This document shows positions 52,625-64,000 of a stretch of DNA of 64,000 nucleotides, one piece after another. The stretch lies in contig NZ_AP024109.1 of the NCBI RefSeq assembly GCF_016591715.1, positions 6,074,001-6,138,000 on the forward strand, written 5' to 3'. The notes under the pieces were generated by a model, which made no database searches, was not told where the DNA came from, and saw only the letters and a program-made list of their open reading frames with translations. The stretch comes from Mesorhizobium sp. J8 (GTDB lineage: Bacteria > Pseudomonadota > Alphaproteobacteria > Rhizobiales > Rhizobiaceae). Both the position numbers and the translations under genes were made by a program. Position 1 is the first letter of the stretch. Each line of letters begins with the position of its first letter.

Positions 52625-52668
52625 TTGCATTTCAACGAAAAATATGTTTATATTGAATGAGTATTCAA
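52625..52668 (+). promoter_or_regulatory. Promoter with overlapping TetR-type operator (site a)
   Basis: TTGCAT (52625-52630), an 18-nt spacer and TATATT (52649-52654) form a good promoter. The operator TTGAATGAGTATTCAA (52653-52668), a perfect 6-bp inverted repeat with a 4-nt spacer, overlaps the -10 and ends 19 nt before the Rieske start. Two related sites are at 55442 and 63677. Confidence 0.75.
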
Positions 52669-52687
52669 CAAAAAGAAGAGCATACCG

Positions 52688-53890
52688 ATGAACCCGCACC
52701 TCCGTGACGTGGCGATTCCCAACGATTGGGACCGGCGGGGTTTGCCGGGGTGGAGCTACCATTCCAACGCTCTTCTCGAGCTCGAGAAGGAATACGTCTT
52801 CCGCAATCATTGGCAGATCGTCGGCCATGTCTCCGACGTGCCGAATCCGGGCGACTATCTGACCATGGACGTCATCGGCGAACGCGCGCTGATCCTGCGC
52901 GGCAAGGACGGCGTCGTGCGTGCCTTCAACAATATGTGCCGCCACCGCGGCAGCCGCGTCGTCGCCGACAGCCAGGGCAGTTGCAAGAACGCGCTTGTGT
53001 GCCCGTTCCATGGCTGGGTCTACAATCTCGACGGAACTCTGCGCGGTGCCGCCCGTCCGCGCTCCTTCCCCGAGCTCGACAAGACCGAGTTCGGCCTGAT
53101 GCCGCTCGACCTCGAAATCTGGATGGGCTTCATCTTCATCCGCTTCCGCAAGGGCGGCCCGCAGCCTTCGGTGGCCGAGCTCTTGAAGCCGATCGAAGCC
53201 GAGATGGCGCATTACAACGTCGGCGAAATGGTGCCGTCCTGGGGCATCTGGACACAGAGATCGCCGGTCAACTGGAAGTCGGTGCGCGACGTCGACAATG
53301 AGGGCTATCACGTCGCCATGGCGCATCCGGCGCTGCAGGACCTCTATGGCGCCACCTATTTCGACGAGCCTTTCGTCAACGGCGTGTCGCGCTCCTTCGC
53401 CACCTACAATCCGCATGCCGGCCGGCGCTGGAGCGTGCGCGAGTACATCAAGCTCGCGCCCGAGGCCACGCATCTGCCGGAGCATCTGCGCAAGGCCTGG
53501 ATCTATTACGGCATCTTCCCCAACAACGCGCTGTCGATCATGCCGGAATCGGTGCAGTTCTATCAGGAGTTCCCGATGTCGACCGGCGAGACGCTGCTGC
53601 GCGGCGCGGTCTACCGCTACAAGGACGAGACCAGGGAACAGGCGGCCGCACGCTACCTAGCCTATCGCATCGACCGCGACACTATGAACGAGGACGTGCA
53701 GCTTTCCGTGTGGTCGAACGAATCCATGCTGTCGGAAGCCTTCGAGGGTTTTTATCTCTCCGACCTCGAATATGGCGTGCGCACCCACCACGACCATCTG
53801 CGCAGGCAGGTCCCGGTGCTCAACCTGGAGACGGCGCCCGAGGAAAAGGACATGTGGGGGCTGAACGAAGCGCTGAGGTCGAGGGGATGA
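52688..53890 (+). CDS. Rieske [2Fe-2S] oxygenase, probable quaternary-amine N-demethylase type
   Basis: Catalytic alpha subunit of a Rieske non-haem iron oxygenase, 400 residues. The Rieske cluster ligands are Cys84 and His86 (CRHRG) and Cys105 and His108 (CPFHGW). The mononuclear iron ligands are His208 and His213 in NEGYHVAMAH. The bridging residue three before His208 is Glu205, where most ring-hydroxylating dioxygenases have Asp; carnitine monooxygenase CntA also has Glu. This and the BetI-like regulon suggest attack on a trimethylammonium or N-methyl group rather than an aromatic ring. No ferredoxin reductase gene is visible here, so the electron partner lies elsewhere. Confidence 0.88.
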   Translation: MNPHLRDVAIPNDWDRRGLPGWSYHSNALLELEKEYVFRNHWQIVGHVSDVPNPGDYLTMDVIGERALILRGKDGVVRAFNNMCRHRGSRVVADSQGSCKNALVCPFHGWVYNLDGTLRGAARPRSFPELDKTEFGLMPLDLEIWMGFIFIRFRKGGPQPSVAELLKPIEAEMAHYNVGEMVPSWGIWTQRSPVNWKSVRDVDNEGYHVAMAHPALQDLYGATYFDEPFVNGVSRSFATYNPHAGRRWSVREYIKLAPEATHLPEHLRKAWIYYGIFPNNALSIMPESVQFYQEFPMSTGETLLRGAVYRYKDETREQAAARYLAYRIDRDTMNEDVQLSVWSNESMLSEAFEGFYLSDLEYGVRTHHDHLRRQVPVLNLETAPEEKDMWGLNEALRSRG

Positions 53891-53933
53891 GCTCTTTTCT
53901 TCTCCCCGTCCCACGGGGAGAAGGAAGAGCCAA

Positions 53934-55352
53934 TCACCCCCGCCAGACGCCTTCCTTCCTGAGGTCATCCATGGTCCGCGAAATCCCTTCCCGCAGGATC
54001 GCCACCATATCGTCGACCTGCTCTTTGGTGATGATCAGCGGCGGCGACATCACGCACATGTTGATCAGCGGCCGCACCAGAAGGCCGAGTTCGTGGCAAT
54101 GCGCGTCGATGCGTTTGCCAACATCCTTGTCGAGCTGAAGCGGATCCTTGCTTTCGCGATCGGCGACGCATTCGACGCAAGCCATCAGGCCGACGCCGCG
54201 TACCTCGCCGACCAGCGGCAGCTCTTCCAGCGTCTTCAGTTGCGCCTGGAAATAGGGCGCGATCTCGCGCGCGTGGGCAAGCACGCCCCCCTCCAGCAGG
54301 TCGAGATTCTTCAGCGCCACCGCGCAGCCGATCGGATGGCTGGTGTAGGTGAGGCCATGGCCAAACAGGGCGTCAGGGTGGTTGGACCGGCGCAGCTCTT
54401 CCAGCAGCCGCTCGGAGATGATGACGCCGCCGAGCGGGAAATAGCCCGACGTGACGCCCTTGGCGAAGGTGATCATGTCCGGATCGATGCCGAACACGTC
54501 GCGGGAGGCGAAGACGTGGCCGAGCCGCCCGAAGCCGGTCACCACCTCGTCCGAGACATAGAGGATGTCGTTCTCGCGGCAGATCTCGCGGATGCGCTTC
54601 AGGTACCCGTCCGGCGGCACAACGACACCGCCGGAAGCCTGCACCGGCTCGCCGACAAAGGCGCCGATGCGCTCCGCGCCGACGCGCGCGACGGTGTCGC
54701 GGAACTGCTCGACGAGAAAATCGGTGAAGGCGGCGATGCTCATCTCCTTCGGCCGCCGGAACGGATCGGGCGAGGACAGCTTCACCACCAGATCGTCGGC
54801 GCCGTCCATCCAGTCGCGGTCGCGCGGGCGGCCGTTGAGCGAGGCCGACAGATAGGTCGAGCCGTGATAGGCGCCGCCGCGGCTGAGGATGAGCTTCTTC
54901 TCCGGCCGTCCGCGGACGTTGTTGTAGAACTGCATGAAGCGCAGCGCCGTCTCTACCGCCGACGAGCCGCCGGTGGTGAAGAAGGTGTGGCTGAGATCGC
55001 CGGGTGCCGCATCGGCGATGCGCCGCGCGAGCTCGGCCGAGGGCGCGTTCATCGTGTACCACGGCGTGTTGTAGGAGAGTGCCATCGCCTGGTCGTACAT
55101 GACCTTGGCCAGCTCCTCGCGGCGATGGCCGACATTGATGCACCACATGCCGGCCGGCCCGTCGATCAGGCGCTTCCCGGAGCCGTCGGTGATGTAGATG
55201 CCGTCGCCCTCGCCGATCAGCGCGCGCGCCTCGTTGCCGACCGAGCCGGCATAAGGCCAGGGCTGGACGAGATGGCGCTTGGCGAGCTCGACCGCGTCGT
55301 CATCGTCAGGCCCGATGAGTTCACTTGCCTTGATCTTGCTTTGAGCCGCCAT
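53934..55352 (-). CDS. Class III PLP-dependent aminotransferase
   Basis: Aminotransferase of 472 residues, omega-amino-acid/diamine:pyruvate type. The PLP Lys298 lies in TFAKGVTSGYFPLGG, the Asp in YVSDEVVTGFGR (Asp268), and the phosphate-binding TTGGSSAVETALR near 126-138. The sequence is closest by eye to putrescine or beta-alanine:pyruvate aminotransferases. It is convergent with the Rieske gene (43 nt) and divergent from the polyamine-type importer, with operator site b in between. It probably removes the primary amine of the imported compound or of a breakdown product. Confidence 0.92.
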   Translation of the reverse strand: MAAQSKIKASELIGPDDDDAVELAKRHLVQPWPYAGSVGNEARALIGEGDGIYITDGSGKRLIDGPAGMWCINVGHRREELAKVMYDQAMALSYNTPWYTMNAPSAELARRIADAAPGDLSHTFFTTGGSSAVETALRFMQFYNNVRGRPEKKLILSRGGAYHGSTYLSASLNGRPRDRDWMDGADDLVVKLSSPDPFRRPKEMSIAAFTDFLVEQFRDTVARVGAERIGAFVGEPVQASGGVVVPPDGYLKRIREICRENDILYVSDEVVTGFGRLGHVFASRDVFGIDPDMITFAKGVTSGYFPLGGVIISERLLEELRRSNHPDALFGHGLTYTSHPIGCAVALKNLDLLEGGVLAHAREIAPYFQAQLKTLEELPLVGEVRGVGLMACVECVADRESKDPLQLDKDVGKRIDAHCHELGLLVRPLINMCVMSPPLIITKEQVDDMVAILREGISRTMDDLRKEGVWRG

Positions 55353-55441
55353 TTTCGCCTCGCATCGCCAGGTTGCTGAATTTTCATCGGGTATCAAACG
55401 ACGCGGAAAACCATGGGAACTCGGCTTTTCATCACTTCATT

Positions 55442-55457
55442 TTGAATATCCGTTCAA
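55442..55457. promoter_or_regulatory. TetR-type operator (site b)
   Basis: TTGAATATCCGTTCAA has half-sites TTGAAT and GTTCAA (TTGAAC on the other strand) with a 4-nt spacer. It lies 89 nt upstream of the aminotransferase gene and 185 nt upstream of the importer operon and matches sites a and c. Confidence 0.7.
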
Positions 55458-55642
55458 TCAATATCGCAGAAATAGCGCTTGATTTCAATCGGCGGATGCG
55501 CTCATGATGAAAGAAAGCCGGCAAGCCAGGAGCGATCGCGCTCCAAGCATAATTCGGGAACAGGCGGCCGGCGCCGCGAATGGGAAGGCCGCATGGCGGG
55601 ACAGTCCGAGCCAGCTACCGAAATCACGCCCGGAGCGCTGCA

Positions 55643-56560
55643 ATGACGGTTGCCGCGGAAGGGTCGCCCCCGCTGCGCATGGCGGGATCGAGACGAAGTC
55701 CCCTTCTGCAATCGGAAGCCGTCCAGGGCTTTGCCCTGATCAGTCCCACCTTCGTCTACGCCCTCATTCTCCTCGTCCTGCCGATCCTGGTCGTCATCGC
55801 CCATTCCTTCTGGACGCAGAACTACCTCACCATCGACCACACCTTCACGCTGGACAACTACCGGATCGCGCTGACCGAGCCGATCTACCGCGACCTGCTC
55901 TGGCGCTCGCTCTACATCTCGCTGACGGTCAGCCTGCTGACGGTGGCGCTCGCCTACCCGATCGCTTATTTCATTTCCTTCCACGGCGGCCGCCACAAGA
56001 GCCTGTGGCTGTTCCTCATCACCATCCCGTTCTGGACCAGCTACCTGTTGCGCGTGATGTCGTGGAAGGTGATCCTCGGCTACAACGGCGTCCTCAACTC
56101 CGGCCTTATGGGCCTCGGCATCATCGACCAGCCGTCGACGGCGCTCCTCTACAATTCCAGCGCCGTCATCATCACGCTCACCCATGCCTGGGCGACCTTC
56201 GCCATCCTGCCGATCTTCGTGTCGCTGGAGAAGGTCGACCGCACCCTGGTGGAGGCCGCGACCGACCTCGGCGACGGACCGCTGCGCTCCTTCCTGCGCG
56301 TCACCCTGCCGCTGTCGGCGCCCGGCGTCATCTCGGCCGCGCTGATCGTCATGATCCCCACCGTCGGCGACTATGTGACGCCGAAGCTGGTCGGCGGCAA
56401 GGATGGCGTCATGATCGCCAATGCCATCCAGGCGCAGTTCGGCAAGGCGTCGAACTGGCCGCTGGGCGCGGCACTTTCCGTCACCACCATGATCATCGTC
56501 TCGCTGATGGCCGGCGCCACCGTGCTGGCCATCCGCGCCCTGCAGAAGCTGGCGCGATGA
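55643..56560 (+). CDS. Polyamine-type ABC transporter permease (PotB/PotH-like)
   Basis: Inner-membrane permease of 305 residues with six membrane segments, the first at about 28-50. The EAA loop reads VDRTLVEAATDLGDGPLRSFLRVTLPLSAPG. GGAG seven nt before the ATG fixes the start. The next permease begins within its stop codon. Permeases of this class import putrescine, spermidine or related cationic compounds; the flanking amine oxidase and aminotransferase agree with an amine substrate. Confidence 0.95.
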   Translation: MTVAAEGSPPLRMAGSRRSPLLQSEAVQGFALISPTFVYALILLVLPILVVIAHSFWTQNYLTIDHTFTLDNYRIALTEPIYRDLLWRSLYISLTVSLLTVALAYPIAYFISFHGGRHKSLWLFLITIPFWTSYLLRVMSWKVILGYNGVLNSGLMGLGIIDQPSTALLYNSSAVIITLTHAWATFAILPIFVSLEKVDRTLVEAATDLGDGPLRSFLRVTLPLSAPGVISAALIVMIPTVGDYVTPKLVGGKDGVMIANAIQAQFGKASNWPLGAALSVTTMIIVSLMAGATVLAIRALQKLAR

Positions 56561-57378
56561 CGGCGATAAGACGTTTCCTGCCTAGCTGGCTGTCGAGCTA
56601 CGCCGTCCTCTATCTGTTGTTCCTTTATCTGCCGGTGATCTTCCTGCCGATCTTCTCGATCAACACGGCGGCGACGCCCAAATTCCCGCTCTCGGGCGTC
56701 ACCCTGCACTGGTACGAGGATCTGCCGCGCACGCCGGCGCTGATCGACGCGACCTGGAACAGCCTGATCGTCGGCGTCTCCGCCTCGATCCTGTCGACGG
56801 TGCTGGGCATCCTCGCCGCCCGCTCGATCACCCGCTACCGCTACCCCGGCCGCCGCGCCATCAACGGCCTGATCATGGCGCCGCTGGTGCTGCCGGAGGT
56901 GATCGTCGCCATCTCCATGCTTTTGGTGATGCTGCAGCTTGGCCTCAGCCTGTCGCTGTTCACCGTGGTGCTCGGCCACGTCCTGGTCTGCATCCCCTAT
57001 TCGATGACCGTTCTGACCTCCGGCTTCGAGGGTTTCGACCGCAGCCTGGAGGAGGCGTCCGCCGATCTGGGCGAAAGCGCCTTCGGCACTTTCCGGCGCG
57101 TGACGCTGCCGATGGTCGCGCCGGCGATCATCTCCAGCCTGCTCGTCTGTTTCACCATCTCGCTCGACGAATTCATCATTGCCTTCTTTCTCACCGGCAC
57201 CGAGGCGACGCTGCCGATCTACATCTGGGGCCAGTTGCGCTTCGCGGCCAAGCTCCCCGGCGTGCTGGCGCTCGGCACCCTGCTGCTTTTCGCTTCCTTC
57301 GTGCTGATGACGATTGCCGAAATCCTGCGCCGCCGCGCAGCGAGACGCACCCAGAACGAGGGAGGCCTATATGCTTGA
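56557..57378 (+). CDS. Polyamine-type ABC transporter permease (PotC/PotI-like)
   Basis: Second permease of the importer, 273 residues, about six membrane segments. The EAA loop reads FDRSLEEASADLGESAFGTFRRVTLPMVAP and ITISLDEFIIAFFLTG-like sequence (FTISLDEFIIAFFLTG) is characteristic of PotC homologues. The start overlaps the previous stop by 4 nt and the end overlaps the ATPase start by 8 nt, so the three genes are translated together. Confidence 0.95.
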   Translation: MTAIRRFLPSWLSSYAVLYLLFLYLPVIFLPIFSINTAATPKFPLSGVTLHWYEDLPRTPALIDATWNSLIVGVSASILSTVLGILAARSITRYRYPGRRAINGLIMAPLVLPEVIVAISMLLVMLQLGLSLSLFTVVLGHVLVCIPYSMTVLTSGFEGFDRSLEEASADLGESAFGTFRRVTLPMVAPAIISSLLVCFTISLDEFIIAFFLTGTEATLPIYIWGQLRFAAKLPGVLALGTLLLFASFVLMTIAEILRRRAARRTQNEGGLYA

Positions 57379-58489
57379 GCGGGTCCAGTCCGAGCGCACG
57401 CAGTCGGATCGAACCATGATCGAGATCCGCGACGTCACCCGCAGCTACGGGTCCTTCAAAGCGCTGGACAATGCCTCGCTGGCGATCCGCGAAGGCGAGT
57501 TCTTCTCGCTGCTCGGGCCTTCCGGCTGCGGCAAGACCACTTTGCTGCGCATGATCGCCGGCTTCGACACGCCGACCAGCGGCTCCATCGCCGTCGACGG
57601 CCAGCCGATGGACGGAATTCCCGCCAACCGCCGGCCGACCAACATGGTGTTCCAGAGCTATGCGATCTTCCCGCATCTCAATGTCGAGCAGAACGTCGCC
57701 TATGGGCTGAAGCGGCTGAAGCTCGACGCCGGCGAGGAGAAGCGCCGCGTCGAGGAAGCGCTGGCGCAGGTCTCGCTGACCGGCCTCGGCAAGCGCCGCG
57801 CCACCGAGCTTTCCGGCGGCCAGCGCCAGCGCGTGGCTTTGGCCCGCGCCCTGGTCATGCGGCCCAAGGTGCTGCTGCTCGACGAGCCGCTTTCGGCGCT
57901 CGACAAGAAGCTGCGCGAGCAGATGCAGGTCGAATTGCGCCGCCTGCAGCAGGCCGTCGGCATCACCTTTGTGCTGGTCACGCACGACCAGTACGAGGCG
58001 CTTGCCATGTCGGACCGCATCGCGGTGATGTTCGGCGGGCGCATCGCGCAGGTCGCCTCGCCCAAGGAGATCTATCAGCGCCCGGTCAACCGCCAGGTCG
58101 CCGATTTTCTCGGCGGCATGAACTTCGTCAAGGCCGAGATCGTCGAGGAGAACGGCGCTTCGCTGGTGCTCGACACGCTGGGCTTCGGCCGCGTCAGGAC
58201 CGACAAGCCGAAGGCTTTCGTGCGCAATGGCGGCGCGGCGACGCTCGGCATCAGGCCCGAGCGCCTGCGCGTCTTGTGGGACAATGCGACGGCGAAATTC
58301 GAGGTCGCCGGCAAGGTGGTGGAGCGCCACTATTTCGGCGAGATCACGCATCTGATCGTCGAGATACCGGGGCTCGAAAAGCCGCTCTCGGTCACCGAGA
58401 CCAATGATTTCGGCGCCGACGACATTCCGGTCGGCGCACCGATCCGCCTCGCCTACGATCCCGAGGCGCTGGTGGCGATGGCCGACTGA
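57371..58489 (+). CDS. Polyamine-type ABC transporter ATP-binding protein (PotA-like)
   Basis: ATPase of 372 residues. Walker A is GPSGCGKTT (about 49-57), signature LSGGQRQR, Walker B VLLLDEPLSALD, His switch VLVTHD, then a TOBE region with LGIRPERLRVL. GGAGG precedes the ATG by five nt. The last 37 nt overlap the 3' end of the convergent flavin amine oxidase gene. Together with the two permeases and the two binding proteins encoded on the other strand it makes a full importer. Confidence 0.95.
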   Translation: MLERVQSERTQSDRTMIEIRDVTRSYGSFKALDNASLAIREGEFFSLLGPSGCGKTTLLRMIAGFDTPTSGSIAVDGQPMDGIPANRRPTNMVFQSYAIFPHLNVEQNVAYGLKRLKLDAGEEKRRVEEALAQVSLTGLGKRRATELSGGQRQRVALARALVMRPKVLLLDEPLSALDKKLREQMQVELRRLQQAVGITFVLVTHDQYEALAMSDRIAVMFGGRIAQVASPKEIYQRPVNRQVADFLGGMNFVKAEIVEENGASLVLDTLGFGRVRTDKPKAFVRNGGAATLGIRPERLRVLWDNATAKFEVAGKVVERHYFGEITHLIVEIPGLEKPLSVTETNDFGADDIPVGAPIRLAYDPEALVAMAD

Positions 58490-59751
58490 ATCTTTCCGGC
58501 CGCGATGCGTCCCGCAACGATCGCGCCCTCGACATAGCCCGGAAAAGACGGCGAGAGTTCCGAGGCGGCGAAATGGACCGGCGGGGCGCCGGCAAGGATG
58601 ACGCGCTCGGCATCGCGCGCGCTCACGTCGATGATGAGATCGCTATAGGCGCCGCCACTCCAGCGGTCATGCGTCCAGTCACGCGCGCTGAAATCGACGA
58701 TATCGGCGGCCTGCGAGCCGAGCGCCTGGACAAGCCTGGCGATGATTTCCGCCTGCAATGCCGCCTCGCCGAGCATATGCCAGCGCAGCGCGAGCGGCCC
58801 GCCGACAAAGACGACAAGCGCGGCGTGATCGGTATCCTTGCTGGCGTCGCAGGCAAACAGCCCCGGCTGATCGCGCCACATGACCATGCCGCTCAAGGCG
58901 CGCTCGCGCCAGAACGGCTTTGCGTAGCGCACCAGGATCTTGATCACCGCGCCGCTTTCCCAGACGCCGAGCGCGGTTGCGAGCTCCGCCGGCAAGGCCG
59001 GCGCGAAATCAAGCTTCGCGGCCGTCGCCGGCGGCAGCGCGACCAGGACCTGGCGCGCTGCGATCGTGGCCGCGCCTGTGCTGATGCGAACGCCTTGCGG
59101 CACGCGCTCGACGCGCGTCGCCGCTTGGTTCAGGCGCAACCGGTCGCCGAGCGCGGCGGCAAGGTCCTCGGCCAGCGACTGCATGGTGTCGCCCAGGAAA
59201 TACTGCAGCTCGAACACCTCGTTGGTGATGCGGCGATCATTGTCGATCAGGTACCAGAGCGGCACCTTGTCCGCAGCCAGGCACCACAGACCCTCGACCA
59301 GCGAGCGGAAAGCGGCCTTGGCATCGGCCTCGTCGTGCTGGCGTTCCAGCCAATCGGCGACGGTCAGCCCGGCAATCGCCGGGTCGTCCGGATCGATCCG
59401 GTTCATGCGCTCGCGGATCGCCATCGAGACATGATAAGTCCGCTCCGCCCGCGCCGGCGTCATCGACGGATGGGTGATGAACTCGCCTTCGACATAGGTC
59501 TCGACGAAGGCCTTGCCGTAGGCCCTCGCCAGCGCCATCACCTCCGGCATGTCCACGCACAGGAACTGGCCGCCGCTGTCGATACGCTCGTCGAGCCCAT
59601 TGCGGACGGCCTCCACCCTGCCGCCGACCCGGTCGCGCGCCTCCAGCACAAGGAAATCGATGCCGGCGCGCTTCAGCTCGAGCGCGGCTGACAGGCCAGT
59701 AAAGCCGGCGCCGACGATGACGACGTCGGTTCTTTCAATGCCGCTCTTCAA
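58453..59751 (-). CDS. Flavin-containing monoamine oxidase-like protein
   Basis: FAD-dependent amine oxidase of 432 residues. The dinucleotide motif VGAGFTGL (residues 13-20) is followed by EARDRVGGRVEAV, both diagnostic of the MAO/polyamine oxidase family, and the C-terminal FAD segment is PSFPGYVEGAIVAGRIAA. It has no signal peptide or tail anchor, so it is probably cytosolic. Its start overlaps the second binding-protein gene by 4 nt and its 3' end overlaps the convergent ATPase gene. It likely oxidises the imported amine to an aldehyde or imine. Confidence 0.9.
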   Translation of the reverse strand: MKSGIERTDVVIVGAGFTGLSAALELKRAGIDFLVLEARDRVGGRVEAVRNGLDERIDSGGQFLCVDMPEVMALARAYGKAFVETYVEGEFITHPSMTPARAERTYHVSMAIRERMNRIDPDDPAIAGLTVADWLERQHDEADAKAAFRSLVEGLWCLAADKVPLWYLIDNDRRITNEVFELQYFLGDTMQSLAEDLAAALGDRLRLNQAATRVERVPQGVRISTGAATIAARQVLVALPPATAAKLDFAPALPAELATALGVWESGAVIKILVRYAKPFWRERALSGMVMWRDQPGLFACDASKDTDHAALVVFVGGPLALRWHMLGEAALQAEIIARLVQALGSQAADIVDFSARDWTHDRWSGGAYSDLIIDVSARDAERVILAGAPPVHFAASELSPSFPGYVEGAIVAGRIAAGKIQSAIATSASGS

Positions 59752-60824
59752 TAGCCGGCCTTGATCTTCTCGAATTCGGCGACCATGCGCTGCTTCAAGT
59801 CGGGCGCAACCGGCTGCTGGAACAGCGTCTTGTCGAGGAACTTGTCGAGATTGTCGAAACCGCGCTCGGTGAGCAGCTTCTGGTCCATCGCTGCCATGCC
59901 TGCACTGTTGCCGTGACCGTAGCCGAAGGTCTTCACCATATACTCCGAAACACCCGGCGCGTTGACGGCGCTCAGGAAATCATAGGCCTGGTCGAGCTTG
60001 CCCGGCACATCCTTGAGCAGCACATAGCCGCACACCCAGGTCGAGATGCCTTCCTTGGTGTCGCGGTTCATGGCGATCGGCAGGCCTTGCCCTTTCAGCG
60101 TCACATAGGTCTCGTTCCAGCCCCAGACCAGATCGACCTCGTTGCCGGTGAAGGCCTGGTTGAGATCGGTGTCGTCCGTCCAATAGAAGCGGACATTCTT
60201 GTGCACGTCGCGCAGGAAGGCGGAGGCTTGGCTGAACTGCTCGTCGGTCATCTTGGTCCAGTCCTTCAGGCCGATGACCAGGCTCGCCAGCGCATAGGCG
60301 TCGTCGACATTGTCGCCGATGGTGACGCGTCCCTTGAACTTCGGATCGGCGAAGACCTTTAGCGACTGCGCCTCGTCGGCCGTCACCTTGTCGGTGCGGT
60401 AGAGCAGCGAGGTGTTGCCCCAGTCGAAAGGCATGAACCAGGCCTTGCCGTCGGCGGTGATGGCCAGGTCCTTCATCGCCATGATGCCTGGATTGAGGTC
60501 CTTCCAACCGGCGATCTTCGAGGTGTCGAGCGGCTGCAGCAACCCGGCCTCGCGCCATTTCACCACGCTTTGCGAGCAGGGATGCGCGATATCGGCCTTG
60601 AAGCCGGCGCGCATCTTCTCGAACGCCTCGTCCTCATCGCCGAAGAAGGAGAAGGTCGGCTCGGCATTGTATTTGGCGGTGTAGGCCGGATGCAGCAGCG
60701 GGTCCTCGTAACCGGACCAGTCGAAGACGACGAGGTCGCCGCCACCTTCGGCAAGCGCATAGGCGGTGCCCGCGCCGACGGTAACGAGGGCGGCCAAGAC
60801 AAGACGGCGAAGCATGGTTTTCAT
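59748..60824 (-). CDS. Polyamine-type periplasmic binding protein (second tandem copy)
   Basis: Solute-binding protein of the PotD/PotF type, 358 residues with a signal peptide (about 1-25). It shares long identical stretches with the upstream copy, for example FDWSGYEDP near the N-terminus, HPCSQSVVKWREAGLLQPLD and GDNVDDAYALASL. The two copies differ most in a segment near residues 200-235 (DTDLNQAFTGNEVD versus TTDIVQLLSGGEVD) and in the GWNETYVTL region, which probably line the ligand pocket. A duplication followed by ligand divergence is likely. It is upstream of the amine oxidase and overlaps it. Confidence 0.93.
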   Translation of the reverse strand: MKTMLRRLVLAALVTVGAGTAYALAEGGGDLVVFDWSGYEDPLLHPAYTAKYNAEPTFSFFGDEDEAFEKMRAGFKADIAHPCSQSVVKWREAGLLQPLDTSKIAGWKDLNPGIMAMKDLAITADGKAWFMPFDWGNTSLLYRTDKVTADEAQSLKVFADPKFKGRVTIGDNVDDAYALASLVIGLKDWTKMTDEQFSQASAFLRDVHKNVRFYWTDDTDLNQAFTGNEVDLVWGWNETYVTLKGQGLPIAMNRDTKEGISTWVCGYVLLKDVPGKLDQAYDFLSAVNAPGVSEYMVKTFGYGHGNSAGMAAMDQKLLTERGFDNLDKFLDKTLFQQPVAPDLKQRMVAEFEKIKAGY

Positions 60825-60939
60825 GGCGCGAGAAACTCCCCCATCGCGGACGACGGGAGGAAGTTAAGAGAATTCAGAAGCTTTGGCGAGCCCGCTCACT
60901 TTGCTCTGCTTGGCAAACGAGCGGGCCGCAGGGTTGGCC

Positions 60940-62022
60940 TCAATAGCCGGCTTTGATCTTCTCGAACTCGGCGATCATCTTGAGCTTGAGCTCCGAAGGC
61001 AGCGGCTGCTGGAAAAGCGTCTTGTCGACCCATTTTTCCACATTGTCGTAGCCCTTTTCCTTCAGGATCGCCGGGTCGACGCCGGCCATGCCCTTGGCAT
61101 TGGCCTGGCCGTAGCCCCAGTCCTTGACCAGTGTCTTGGCGACTTCCGGATCGTTCACGGCGTTGAGATAGTCATAGGCCTTGTCGATGTTACCGGGCGC
61201 GTCCTTGAACAGCACATAGCCGCAGACCCAGGTCGAGATGCCTTCGTCGGTGTCCTTCTTGGACTTGATCGGCACGCCGGCCTTGACCGACTGCACGGTC
61301 GCGTCGTTCCAAGCCCAGGCTAGGTCGACCTCGCCGCCCGAGAGCAGTTGCACGATGTCGGTGGTGTCGGTCCAGTAGGAGCGCACATTCTTGTGCACTT
61401 GGCGCAGGAAGTCCGATGCCTGCTTGAATTGGTCGTCCGTCATCTTGGTCCAGTCCTTGAGCCCGATGGCGAGGCTGGCCAGCGCGTAGGCGTCGTCGAC
61501 ATTGTCGCCGATCGAGACACGGCCCTTGTATTTCGGATCGGCAAACACCTTGAGGGACTGCACGTCCTTCTCGGCGATCTTGTCGGAATTGTAGGTGAGC
61601 TGGGTATCGCCCCAATCCCAGGGCATGAACCAGGCCTTGCCGTCGGACGTCGTGGCGAGGTCCTTCATCGCCATGATGCCGGGGTTGAGATCCTTCCAGC
61701 CAGTGATCTTCGAGGTGTCGAGCGGCTGCAAGAGCCCCGCTTCGCGCCACTTCACCACGCTCTGCGAGCAGGGATGGCCGAGATCGGACTTGAAGCCGGA
61801 GCGGATCTTTTCGAATGCCTCGTCCTCGTCGCCGAAGAAGGCGAAGGTCGGCGAGTCGCCGTTCTTCTCGACATATTTGCCATGGAAGCTCGGATCCTCG
61901 TAGCCGGACCAGTCGAACACGATCAGGTCCTTGTCGGCGGCGACGGCGAACGCCGCCGCCGAAGCCGCGATCGCGCTCCCAAGCGCCAGGGTCAGTGTCA
62001 GGCGTCGGCTGAGTTTCTTCAT
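60940..62022 (-). CDS. Polyamine-type periplasmic binding protein (first tandem copy)
   Basis: Solute-binding protein of the PotD/PotF type, 360 residues with a signal peptide (MKKLSRRLTLTLALGSAIAA, cleavage after about residue 28). The sequence is closely related to the next gene, 115 nt downstream. The start is preceded by AGAGGA; a longer in-frame reading would overlap the regulator gene. It presumably docks with the permease pair encoded at 55643-57378 on the other strand, because no other permeases are nearby. Having two binding proteins would widen the range or affinity of a single importer. Confidence 0.93.
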   Translation of the reverse strand: MKKLSRRLTLTLALGSAIAASAAAFAVAADKDLIVFDWSGYEDPSFHGKYVEKNGDSPTFAFFGDEDEAFEKIRSGFKSDLGHPCSQSVVKWREAGLLQPLDTSKITGWKDLNPGIMAMKDLATTSDGKAWFMPWDWGDTQLTYNSDKIAEKDVQSLKVFADPKYKGRVSIGDNVDDAYALASLAIGLKDWTKMTDDQFKQASDFLRQVHKNVRSYWTDTTDIVQLLSGGEVDLAWAWNDATVQSVKAGVPIKSKKDTDEGISTWVCGYVLFKDAPGNIDKAYDYLNAVNDPEVAKTLVKDWGYGQANAKGMAGVDPAILKEKGYDNVEKWVDKTLFQQPLPSELKLKMIAEFEKIKAGY

Positions 62023-62104
62023 GCTGTTCCATCCTCTTTTGGTTTTGCCGGTCTTGTTTGGCCGGCTGTTGCTAACCCTGCTTTTGCTAGCCCCACATCC
62101 TTTG

Positions 62105-62788
62105 CTAACCATAGTGTTTCGGGAAGGCGGCGGCCAGGAACGCGTTCGCCGCCTGCAATGCCGTCTCCCGCGTGGTGTCCTCCGTTCCCATCATCAGCCG
62201 CAGCCACAGGCCCTCGAGCATGGCGCTGAGCGCCAGGGCGATGGCCTGGGGGTCATAGCTGTAGCCGCCGCTTTTCTTGAGCGTCGTGCAGAGATCGATG
62301 AAGACCTGCTGATAATAGGCGTCGCGCGAGCTGCTCAGCGCCTGGTAGGTCGGCCGCGACTTGGCCTCGCCCCAGAAGGCGAGCCAGGCGGCGAGCTTGC
62401 GCTTGTTGCAGATCGAGCGGTCGAAATCGGCCCACACCAGCTGCTGCAGTTGTCGCGCCGGATCGTCGCCCGCCTTCTGCAAGGCGGTGCGCCAATGCGC
62501 CGAATACTCGTCATACATATGCTGCAGCGTGGCGATGAGCAGCTTTTCCTTGCTCTCGAAATGGAAGTTGACGATGCCGCGCGACAGGCCCGCGCCGTCG
62601 GCAACGTCGGCCATCGTCGTTTCGGCATAGCCGCGCTTGGCCAGTGAATCGATCGTCGCCTCGATCAGTTGCAGACGCCTGACCTCTTTCGAGGCCTTGC
62701 GGCCGCGCTTGTCGGCGTCGCCTTTCCGCGCCGTTTCGGAGAGAGCGTCGCTCGCCTCAGTCTTCATGGGTGTCACGGTCTCCAGCAT
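62105..62788 (-). CDS. TetR-family regulator, BetI-like
   Basis: Transcriptional repressor of 227 residues. After a charged N-terminal extension of about 35 residues comes a TetR helix-turn-helix (RRLQLIEATIDSLAKRGYAETTMADVADGAGLSRGIVNFHF). The C-terminal domain has BetI-like segments: KLAAWLAFWGEAKSRP and ALSAMLEGLWLRLMMG. BetI proteins respond to choline and bind TTGAAC-type inverted repeats, which agrees with the three operator sites found in this regulon. The gene begins 6 nt after the methyltransferase stop; a GTG one codon earlier and an ATG 21 nt later are alternative starts. Site c upstream of the methyltransferase suggests autoregulation. Confidence 0.9.
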   Translation of the reverse strand: MLETVTPMKTEASDALSETARKGDADKRGRKASKEVRRLQLIEATIDSLAKRGYAETTMADVADGAGLSRGIVNFHFESKEKLLIATLQHMYDEYSAHWRTALQKAGDDPARQLQQLVWADFDRSICNKRKLAAWLAFWGEAKSRPTYQALSSSRDAYYQQVFIDLCTTLKKSGGYSYDPQAIALALSAMLEGLWLRLMMGTEDTTRETALQAANAFLAAAFPKHYG

Positions 62789-62794
62789 CACCGG

Positions 62795-63589
62795 CTATCC
62801 GACCGGCTTCCAACCGCGCAGATGAGTGGGGCGGTGCTCGCCACTGTCAAGCACCTTCTGCATCGCCTCCCAAGTCCTGATGTTCTTGTCGACATAGGCC
62901 GCGCCGACCGCTGCCGCGGCCCGTGCGTAGAGCGACCCCTTGAGCCGCGAAAGCTCTTCGCGCGCGACCTCGCGGTACCATGGATTGCGGTCGCGGATGG
63001 TGATGTCGGTGAAGCCGGCGCGCCGCATGGCTTCGGCATAGCGCGCTGGCGAGGCCATGGCGAAGGAGAGCCCCTCGGCCGCGATATAGGCCTTCATCTC
63101 AGGCGACGGCTCCCCGTCATGCGAAATCATCCAGTTCGACGCCGCAAACACCCCTCCGGGTCTCAGCACGCGAAAGATCTCGGCGAACAGCGCGTCCTTA
63201 TCCGGCACGTGCAGCAGCGCGTCCTTGGAGAAGACGACGTCGAAGGAAGCGTTCATGAAAGGCAGCGGCCCCGGCGGCGCCTGGACGAAGCTGACACGAT
63301 CCTCGAGGCCCCGCCTGATCGCCCCTCGCCTCGCCGCCTCGATCACCGGCTTTTCGACGTCGAAGCCGGTGGCTCGAGCCGCGCCGTGCGTTGCCGCCAG
63401 ATGCAGCGTGATGCCGCCGGCGCCGCAACCGATATCGAGGATCGTCTTACCCTTGAGCGAGAGGCCTTCGACCACGCGGTCGACCTCGTCCGGACCGCCC
63501 GGCGACAGGTAGCCCTCGCCCCACAGCGCTTCGAGGAAGCGGATGGCGGTGTCGTCATATTCCGGCTCGGCGTCAGCCGTTTCGATCAT
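62795..63589 (-). CDS. SAM-dependent methyltransferase, phosphoethanolamine N-methyltransferase-like
   Basis: Class I methyltransferase of 264 residues. Motif [11 protein letters not shown] is at residues 50-59, with the acidic post-I residue in GFDVEKP and motif IV in [15 protein letters not shown]. The sequence from [22 protein letters not shown] to motif I and the [11 protein letters not shown] segment resemble plant and protist phosphoethanolamine N-methyltransferases. In an operon with a BetI-like regulator and binding proteins for amines, N-methylation of an amine is the likely activity, but small-molecule methyltransferases are hard to assign. AAGGAT precedes the ATG. It is the first gene of the minus-strand operon. 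Confidence 0.82.
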
Positions 63590-63676
63590 CGGATCCTTAG
63601 CCCCAAATGCCGATGCAGATCAGTCCAGAATGCTGCCAAAGCCTACCGCATCAACAGGAAAACGCAACATCATTTG

Positions 63677-63692
63677 TTGAACATTCATTCAA
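63677..63692. promoter_or_regulatory. TetR-type operator (site c)
   Basis: TTGAACATTCATTCAA has half-sites TTGAAC and ATTCAA (TTGAAT on the other strand) with a 4-nt spacer. It lies 87 nt upstream of the methyltransferase-regulator operon and 96 nt upstream of the divergent FAD oxidoreductase gene. Confidence 0.7.
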
Positions 63693-63788: not shown

Positions 63789-64000
63789 ATGAAGGCATGG
63801 GACGCGATCGTCATCGGCGGCGGCCATAACGGGCTGGTCAACGCCTGCTACCTGCAGCGCGCCGGACTGGACGTGCTGGTGGTCGAGAAGAACGACTGGG
63901 TGGGCGGTGCCGCCACCAGCCGCGAGCTGACGCCGGGCTTCCTCTATTCCAACTGCTCTTATGTCTGCTCGCTGTTCCGGCCCGAGATCATGCGCGATCT
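63789..64000 (+). CDS. FAD-dependent oxidoreductase, phytoene-dehydrogenase-like (3' end outside window)
   Basis: Only the first 70 residues are visible. They contain the dinucleotide-binding motif IVIGGGHNGLVNACYL (residues 7-22) and VVEKNDWVGGAATSREL, which mark the NAD(P)/FAD-dependent oxidoreductases related to phytoene desaturases and amine oxidases (COG1233). GGAGG lies ten nt before the ATG. It is divergent from the methyltransferase gene with operator site c between them, so it probably belongs to the same amine regulon. The full length and C-terminal domain cannot be judged. Confidence 0.85.
   Translation, partial: MKAWDAIVIGGGHNGLVNACYLQRAGLDVLVVEKNDWVGGAATSRELTPGFLYSNCSYVCSLFRPEIMRD

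Follow-up and report, generated by a model that had tools for sequence, protein, structure and literature searches.

Proteins of the BetI family are described as choline-responsive repressors of the bet genes in Ruegeria pomeroyi (BetI1), Escherichia coli, and Sinorhizobium meliloti, and combine a PF13977 domain with palindromic boxes that have TTGA/TCAA arms. In Ruegeria pomeroyi DSS-3, a second BetI-family regulator, BetI2, has boxes unlike the standard betI box, controls betTA, and answers to choline; the common flank printed for it, AAACTTGAAC, includes the half-site TTGAAC (PMC12442346, in the sections accessible to us). The accessible text of two further papers mentions BetI regulons and holds no usable motif (PMC4560400 and PMC3223726), and that of a Mesorhizobium huakuii transcriptome study reports two betI genes that could not be tied to the regulator considered here (PMC3973600). 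Here, we analyzed a 64,000-nucleotide stretch of Mesorhizobium sp. J8 (contig NZ_AP024109.1, positions 6,074,001 to 6,138,000; hereafter, the window), in which three matching 16-bp palindromes, boxes R, A, and M, are very probably the operators of a BetI-like TetR-family repressor (62105-62791, minus strand) that would hold five transcription units off. No paper on this regulon was found in the open-licence PMC literature. The locus shares the PF13977 domain and the TTGA/TCAA arms with the BetI systems, but differs from them in having no bet genes (betA, betB, betC, and betT were not among the proteins scanned at the locus), in its three boxed promoters within 11 kb, and in the inner bases AY/RT in place of ATTGA-N4-TCAAT. 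Its regulator is, like BetI2, a second BetI-family protein with boxes of its own kind, set apart from BetI2 by the betTA genes and the choline response of the latter.

The initial annotation had reported three palindromes of the form TTGAAY-N4-RTTCAA in promoter regions of one 11-kb locus, with no further copy in the window, and all of this was borne out. Box R (TTGAATGAGTATTCAA, 52653-52668) lies 20 bp ahead of the start of a Rieske oxygenase gene. Box A (TTGAATATCCGTTCAA, 55442-55457) sits between divergent genes for an aminotransferase and a permease of an importer, and box M (TTGAACATTCATTCAA, 63677-63692) between the divergent methyltransferase-regulator operon and the gene that opens a flavin adenine dinucleotide (FAD)-enzyme operon, about 90 bp from either start. 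All three boxes, to which no strand is assigned, match the pattern exactly, and their refined form is TTGAAYRNNYRTTCAA; the central bases differ among the three and the arms are kept. The same palindrome thus occurs at the regulator's own promoter (M) and at those of its putative targets (R and A). A search of the window with TTGAAYNNNNRTTCAA returned these three sites only, whether zero, one, or two mismatches were allowed. With at most one mismatch, the three observed copies compare with a mean of 0.16 in dinucleotide shuffles, of which 0 of 100 reached three. Under a first-order Markov model of the window (64% GC), 0.005 exact matches would be expected in 64 kb and 0.5 in a genome of 6.69 Mb, and three exact copies in the given 11 kb would have a chance of about 1e-10. 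A chance origin of the three boxes was rejected by the shuffles, the two-mismatch search, and the Markov estimate. Across the genome (a single contig of 6,690,860 bases), there are six exact copies against the 0.5 expected, and three of the six lie outside the locus. Eleven more copies have one mismatch and, with the exception of that at 1118950, are near background, since the reversed pattern gave eight matches in all at the same setting.

These boxes recur at the same promoters throughout the genus. At E <= 1e-20, 70 of the 121 genomes, J8 included, gave a match to the regulator; among them were 60 of the 73 genomes of the genus, where best matches were 74-98% identical (that of genome G067 being partial). 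Neighborhoods were fetched for 40 of the other 69 genomes, comprising 36 of 59 from the same genus and four of ten from other families; gene calls in the 36 omit matches below 55% identity or covering less than 30% of the query. In the 36 same-genus stretches, box R was exact in 30/30 neighborhoods with the Rieske gene, box A was exact in 32/32 with the permease gene, and box M was present in 35/36 (15 exact, 20 with one mismatch); no further box was found at up to one mismatch. Conservation over the 40-bp flanks ranged from 0.62 to 0.92. In a second set of 80 named loci, which overlaps the first, unnamed set, box R was present in all 39 cases examined, box A in all 71, and box M in 76 of 80. 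Where box M is missing (four loci), there is no FAD-enzyme gene and only a partial methyltransferase gene or none. The count for box R omits 11 Rieske genes that lie too close to the end of a locus, although ten of these have an exact box there, and genes whose N-terminus is missing, among them the truncated Rieske copies in loci L188 and L245, were left out. Extra one-mismatch copies numbered seven in the 80 loci (six being one related sequence at a common place, and one in L242), and the A region of L256 contains another; the reversed pattern had no match across the 1.56 Mb of named loci.

The box also accompanies target genes that lie elsewhere. The Rieske gene was detected in 58/73 same-genus genomes, and in 16 of these it lies away from the regulator, either on another contig (12 genomes, in which draft contig breaks may conceal linkage) or far off on the same one (about 30 kb in G004, G053, and G054, and about 94 kb in G050). 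All 16 displaced genes were fetched, and each is immediately preceded by an exact box; in two of the stretches obtained (L173 and L181), there is also one extra one-mismatch copy each. The stretches L185 and L186, around outside boxes, contain none of the regulon genes. Exact copies of TTGAAYRNNYRTTCAA were absent from all 13 same-genus genomes in which no regulator was detected, and numbered 32 in the 13 genomes examined out of the 59 that bear the regulator, 30 being in the regulon, one by position only; the reversed-pattern control gave three matches across all 26 genomes. What separates regulator from pathway is the loci that keep the regulator-side box despite a different gene content. 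In L064, L065, and L067, the box stands beside the regulator together with the binding proteins, the amine oxidase, and a small protein, no Rieske, aminotransferase, importer, or methyltransferase gene adjoins it, and a boxed Rieske gene and importer lie about 30 kb off. The claim of a single-repressor regulon is supported by genus-wide promoter conservation, displaced Rieske boxes, co-occurrence, and boxes in rearranged loci.

Beyond the genus, where further loci bear on the same separation, the box was found beside the regulator in four loci from four other families (L060-L063; L063 was left out of the protein alignment). A class-wide search of 385 genomes returned nine relatives of the regulator at 42-52% identity, and the box lies near the regulator in four of them (L159, L163, L164, and L166); relatives below about 52% identity are often without the box. 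Among plasmid records, five of the 22 found were examined. The Rhizobiaceae plasmids that carry the regulon (from Rhizobium sp. SL42, Ensifer adhaerens, and Shinella zoogloeoides) have boxes R and A in 3/3 and box M in 2/3, with A exact and R and M at one mismatch.

As to its reader, the regulator scored 50.1 bits for TetR_N (PF00440) and 70.4 bits for PF13977, both above the gathering cut-off. It exceeded the cut-off of the NCBIfam BetI model NF001978 (131.2 against 118 bits) and stayed below that of the equivalog TIGR03384 (129 against 201.3 bits). The initial annotation was right in calling it a BetI-like TetR protein, as PF13977 and NF001978 indicate, but its reading frame ends at 62791 rather than 62788, it falls short of TIGR03384, and the betI gene beside betCAB is elsewhere and has another box. 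Judged by its sequence, it is BetI-like and not the choline regulator BetI itself. The genome holds six PF13977 proteins, and both BetI models are passed by two others, one at L025 (255.9 bits for NF001978 and 254.3 for TIGR03384), where betC, betA, and betB adjoin betI, and one at L026 (C1:2896506; 163.5 and 211.9 bits). The regulator is 24% identical to the BetI beside betCAB. Mesorhizobium betI loci have ATTGA-N4-TCAAT in 25/25 cases and the exact 16-bp box in 0/25, and in the J8 genome the betI promoter at L025:8122-8145 (C1:2258121-2258144) carries TTTATTGACTCATCAATCAATAAA. The sequence TTGATTGGACGTTCAA, one mismatch off the present box, is presumably the operator of BetI. It is contained in the primer of an E. 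coli BetI-gate promoter (PMC7058928, in the part available), and several Mesorhizobium betI boxes are identical to the footprinted Ruegeria box ATTGACGCGTCAAT (PMC12442346). Since betI promoters also hold TTGA-N8-TCAA arms, the two kinds of box are related.

A further relative is encoded at C1:1126430-1127104 (L023:12431-13108), beside MttB-like and old yellow enzyme (OYE)-like genes. Like the regulator, this BetI-like TetR protein belongs to PF13977 and stands at a locus of the methylated-amine type with a conserved 16-bp palindrome; it differs in its box, TTGWACGANCGTWCAA, in being only 26% identical to the regulator, and in occurring in 22/73 same-genus genomes as against 60/73. The palindrome was found in nine of 11 fetched relatives, the other two being short or cut. 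In J8, copies lie at the start of an ABC (ATP-binding cassette)-transporter-containing gene run (L023:4951, C1:1118950) and at the OYE gene (L023:16842, C1:1130841). In 16 of 17 collected copies, a set from which the one-mismatch site L149:530 was left out, the paralog's box has T4 or A13, as none of 97 local boxes does; the exception is the J8 site TTGAACGATCGTTCAA, which fits the local pattern exactly. The helix-turn-helix (HTH) segments, which in this family would form the recognition helix, read SRGIVNFHF in the regulator and its close orthologs, SRGLINHHF in the MttB-linked paralog, and SSALAHHYF in the BetI beside betCAB.

These proteins raise an alternative in which the three boxes are read, singly or in competition, by another BetI-family member (the BetI beside betCAB, the protein at C1:2896506, or the MttB-linked paralog) and the local TetR protein has other targets. 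There are grounds for it in the six PF13977 proteins of the genome, two of them above the TIGR03384 cut-off, in the slightly different box and similar HTH segment of the paralog together with its own-genome site of the local form, and in the TTGA-N8-TCAA arms at betI promoters beside betCAB. We nevertheless regard it as unlikely, because the paralog occurs in far fewer genomes than the local regulator with its boxes, because T4 or A13 separates 16 of its 17 boxes from all local ones, and because box M stands at the operon of the local regulator itself. In 25 loci examined, no betI promoter beside betCAB has an exact box, and these promoters depart from the A and T found at positions 5 and 12 of 97/97 local boxes. 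The BetI beside betCAB was rejected as the reader for having another box at its own promoter in all of these loci, although the similarity of the arms would permit weak cross-binding. The L026 protein and the sixth PF13977 protein, L027, lay outside this comparison of relatives.

Several observations weigh against a single repressor reading these boxes. The regulator reading frame in L063 holds a stop. Five of the nine relatives at 42-52% identity (L160-L162, L165, and L167) have no box within one mismatch; a looser search around their regulators found none either, the nearest being a two-mismatch match in L165, and two of them, L160 and L161, keep the segment SRGIVNFHF though boxless. Two Rhodobacterales plasmid loci likewise have no box within one mismatch. 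In G016, the regulator locus is degraded and without box M, and an exact box still stands at its Rieske gene. The paralog's box is nearly identical to the present one, so that cross-talk or shared sites are possible. The 13 genomes in which no regulator was detected also lack this Rieske gene, so co-occurrence alone cannot part regulator from pathway, and detection scored only the best candidates per genome, which makes absence less than absolute. The mean conservation of the twelve fixed box positions in the same-genus set (0.95-0.99) is partly built in because sites were chosen at up to one mismatch, and the central four bases are variable at box R alone (0.77), being conserved at A (0.94) and M (1.0). 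Finally, genomes of one genus are kin and not independent, and the named set overlaps the unnamed one.

With the local TetR protein as the preferred reader, the placement of the boxes bears on how it would act. A promoter-like element, TTGCAT-18-TATATT (52625-52654, plus strand), was seen by eye with its -10 part overlapping the start of box R, and the flank on this side has a mean conservation of 0.89 over 40 bp. Directly ahead of box A, a scan match, TTGAAA-17-GATATT (55460-55488, minus strand), reads towards the aminotransferase gene, and the flank on its side is conserved at 0.92. The scan found two elements against a shuffle mean of 1.8, the element at box R not being among them and none being placed at box M. 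As the scan is at background, we infer from the box positions that a bound protein would block initiation at R and A, as for a TetR repressor, and the flank conservation on that side backs this. Some TetR proteins activate, and the regulator may be mainly an activator or a dual regulator instead of a simple repressor, a notion to which box M, about 90 bp from both divergent starts with no promoter placed there, lends some room. It is less probable still than another reader, since box R overlaps a -10-like element and box A lies just beyond one, positions at which polymerase would be blocked; the characterized BetI proteins, too, are repressors (PMC12442346, in the sections accessible to us). 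That the boxes resemble each other by chance and by inheritance of promoters from a recent ancestor, with no function, is barely credible, because common ancestry within the genus and the conservation of some flanks have to be set against the chance of about 1e-10, arms kept while central bases differ, and the persistence of boxes in other families and rearranged loci.

Repression by the local regulator would then proceed as follows. A TetR dimer would bind the 16-bp box TTGAAYRNNYRTTCAA, one dimer per box acting either on a single unit or on a divergent pair, so that five units are covered: the Rieske gene from box R; the aminotransferase gene and the Pot-type importer from box A; and, from box M, the operon of the methyltransferase, TetR regulator, binding proteins, and amine oxidase and that of the FAD oxidoreductases and the GcvT-like protein. 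The repressor would hold its own operon off too, autoregulation being suggested by the position of box M at that operon. Its release would be brought about by a small amine, which is probably either the substrate taken up by the importer or one of the first products.

The genes concerned are the following. The Rieske non-heme iron oxygenase of the alpha-subunit type (52688-53890, plus strand; PF00848 and PF00355) has the carnitine monooxygenase CntA as its best solved relative. The class III aminotransferase (53934-55397, minus strand; PF00202) scores above the cut-off of the aminotransferase model NF005447 and is related to omega-aminotransferase structures. All parts of a Pot-type importer were found. 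They comprise a PotB-like permease (55580-56560, plus strand; PF00528, PotB/PotH models below cut-off), a PotC-like permease (56557-57378, plus strand; PF00528, PotC/PotI models below cut-off), a PotA-like ATPase (57314-58489, plus strand; PF00005 and TOBE_2, with TIGR01187 potA above cut-off), and two PotD/PotF-like binding proteins; the real starts of the first permease and of the ATPase are probably internal to their open reading frames. An apparent operon on the minus strand consists of the genes for an S-adenosylmethionine-dependent methyltransferase (62795-63589), whose nearest solved relatives are phosphoethanolamine N-methyltransferases, for the TetR regulator, for periplasmic binding proteins 1 (60940-62112) and 2 (59748-60824; PF13416), and for a flavin amine oxidase (58453-59751; PF01593), the solved relatives of which are cyclohexylamine, monoamine, and putrescine oxidases. 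Both binding proteins are relatives of PotD/PotF and score well below the cut-offs of those models. A CrtO-like FAD-dependent oxidoreductase (about 63789-64000, plus strand, running past the window end) is the first gene of a four-gene set (L029:790-5520). It is followed beyond the window by a second CrtO-like enzyme, a GcvT-like protein whose nearest NCBIfam model, trimethylamine N-oxide demethylase, stays below cut-off, and a small protein without a family. The closest named locus is that of Mesorhizobium sp. B4-1-3, where the regulator match is 100%. Eroded loci were seen in several Mesorhizobium genomes (L188, L194, L245, L246, and G016, whose locus is L072), with the regulator kept and importer, Rieske, or FAD genes partly or wholly gone.

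The Rieske enzyme aligns with CntA, its nearest solved relative, at E 5e-36 over residues 20-221, including CRHRG, CPFHGW, and the bridging Glu before GYH, and its best NCBIfam model is GbcA, at 126.1 bits against a cut-off of 670, which is far from reached. CntA and GbcA are group V Rieske enzymes that act on quaternary amines, and the protein here has the closest structure, the closest model, and the bridging Glu in common with them. In contrast to CntA, it has no Cys pair next to the catalytic iron: in the alignment, Gly and Val replace Cys206 and Cys209, and a Cys-X-X-Cys motif was not found. CntA mutants at Cys206 and Cys209 lost much of their activity, and the Cys pair is reported for some group V members (PMC10952381, in the part available). 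The gene content suggests import and oxidative N-demethylation of a methylated amine. Uptake through the Pot-type importer would be followed by oxidative N-demethylation by the Rieske and FAD enzymes and the folate-linked GcvT-like protein, and the methylated amine would undergo deamination and transamination. The methyltransferase is not accounted for by a purely catabolic reading, and the family names did not identify the substrate.

If the regulon is as proposed, a generically annotated cluster that is common in the sampled Mesorhizobium genomes (regulator in 60/73, Rieske gene in 58/73) becomes one regulon with a named regulator and exact sites. Its substrate becomes findable, since the pathway's inducer should be whatever compound frees the boxes from the repressor. 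A wider proposal, toward which we lean slightly less than away from it, is that at least three BetI-family repressors with related but distinguishable palindromes may coexist in one genome (ATTGAYNNRTCAAT at betI, TTGAAYRNNYRTTCAA here, and TTGWACGANCGTWCAA for the MttB-linked protein), and maybe a fourth at C1:2896506 with TTGACC/GGTCAA, every one of them serving its own methylated-amine gene set. The repressor studied here might control an undescribed route by which an N-methylated compound of polyamine size is broken down through the CntA-like Rieske enzyme without the Cys pair, the CrtO-like flavoenzyme pair, and the GcvT-like demethylase. Were this so, the effector would reveal the substrate. 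The BetI-type paralogs of this genome, with their related boxes, also form a natural set for studying how TetR proteins keep their operators apart.

Other copies of the box and related sequences were also seen. A genome-wide regulon was rejected: the three exact copies outside the locus are the paralog's site, a copy inside a long open reading frame (L024:9436), and one at C1:380954, and the one-mismatch copy at 1118950 belongs to the paralog's set. The copy at C1:380954 (L022:7955) lies upstream of a gene that appears by eye to be GntR-like, followed by a malonyl-CoA synthase gene; with at most one mismatch, it is found at the corresponding position in 16 of the 23 loci, its own included, and is lost in the others. 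In the C1:2896506 region (L026:7462-8200), the second BetI above the TIGR03384 cut-off is divergent from a gene resembling, by eye, those for choline-type binding proteins, and the gap between them carries TTGACCAATGGGACAA and TCGACCAATAGGTCAA, possibly a further form of the box. A related sequence, for example GTGAACGACTGTTCAAAATATGTTCAC, lies at L198:739, L195:343, L203:503, L206:763, L208:826, and L188:5777, and is degenerate in the J8 genome. The copies in L195, L198, L203, L206, and L208 stand some 9 kb away from the regulator, 3-4 kb beyond the FAD operon and between genes that look glyoxalase-like and sulfatase-like by eye, and may be the site of another regulator. The plasmid of Rhizobium sp. 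SL42 carries, at a distance of about 1 kb from the regulon (L292:6239-10751), genes annotated as those of a fatty acid desaturase family protein, a MocE-type ferredoxin, an FAD-dependent oxidoreductase, and inositol 2-dehydrogenase, a set that we take to recall rhizopine catabolism.

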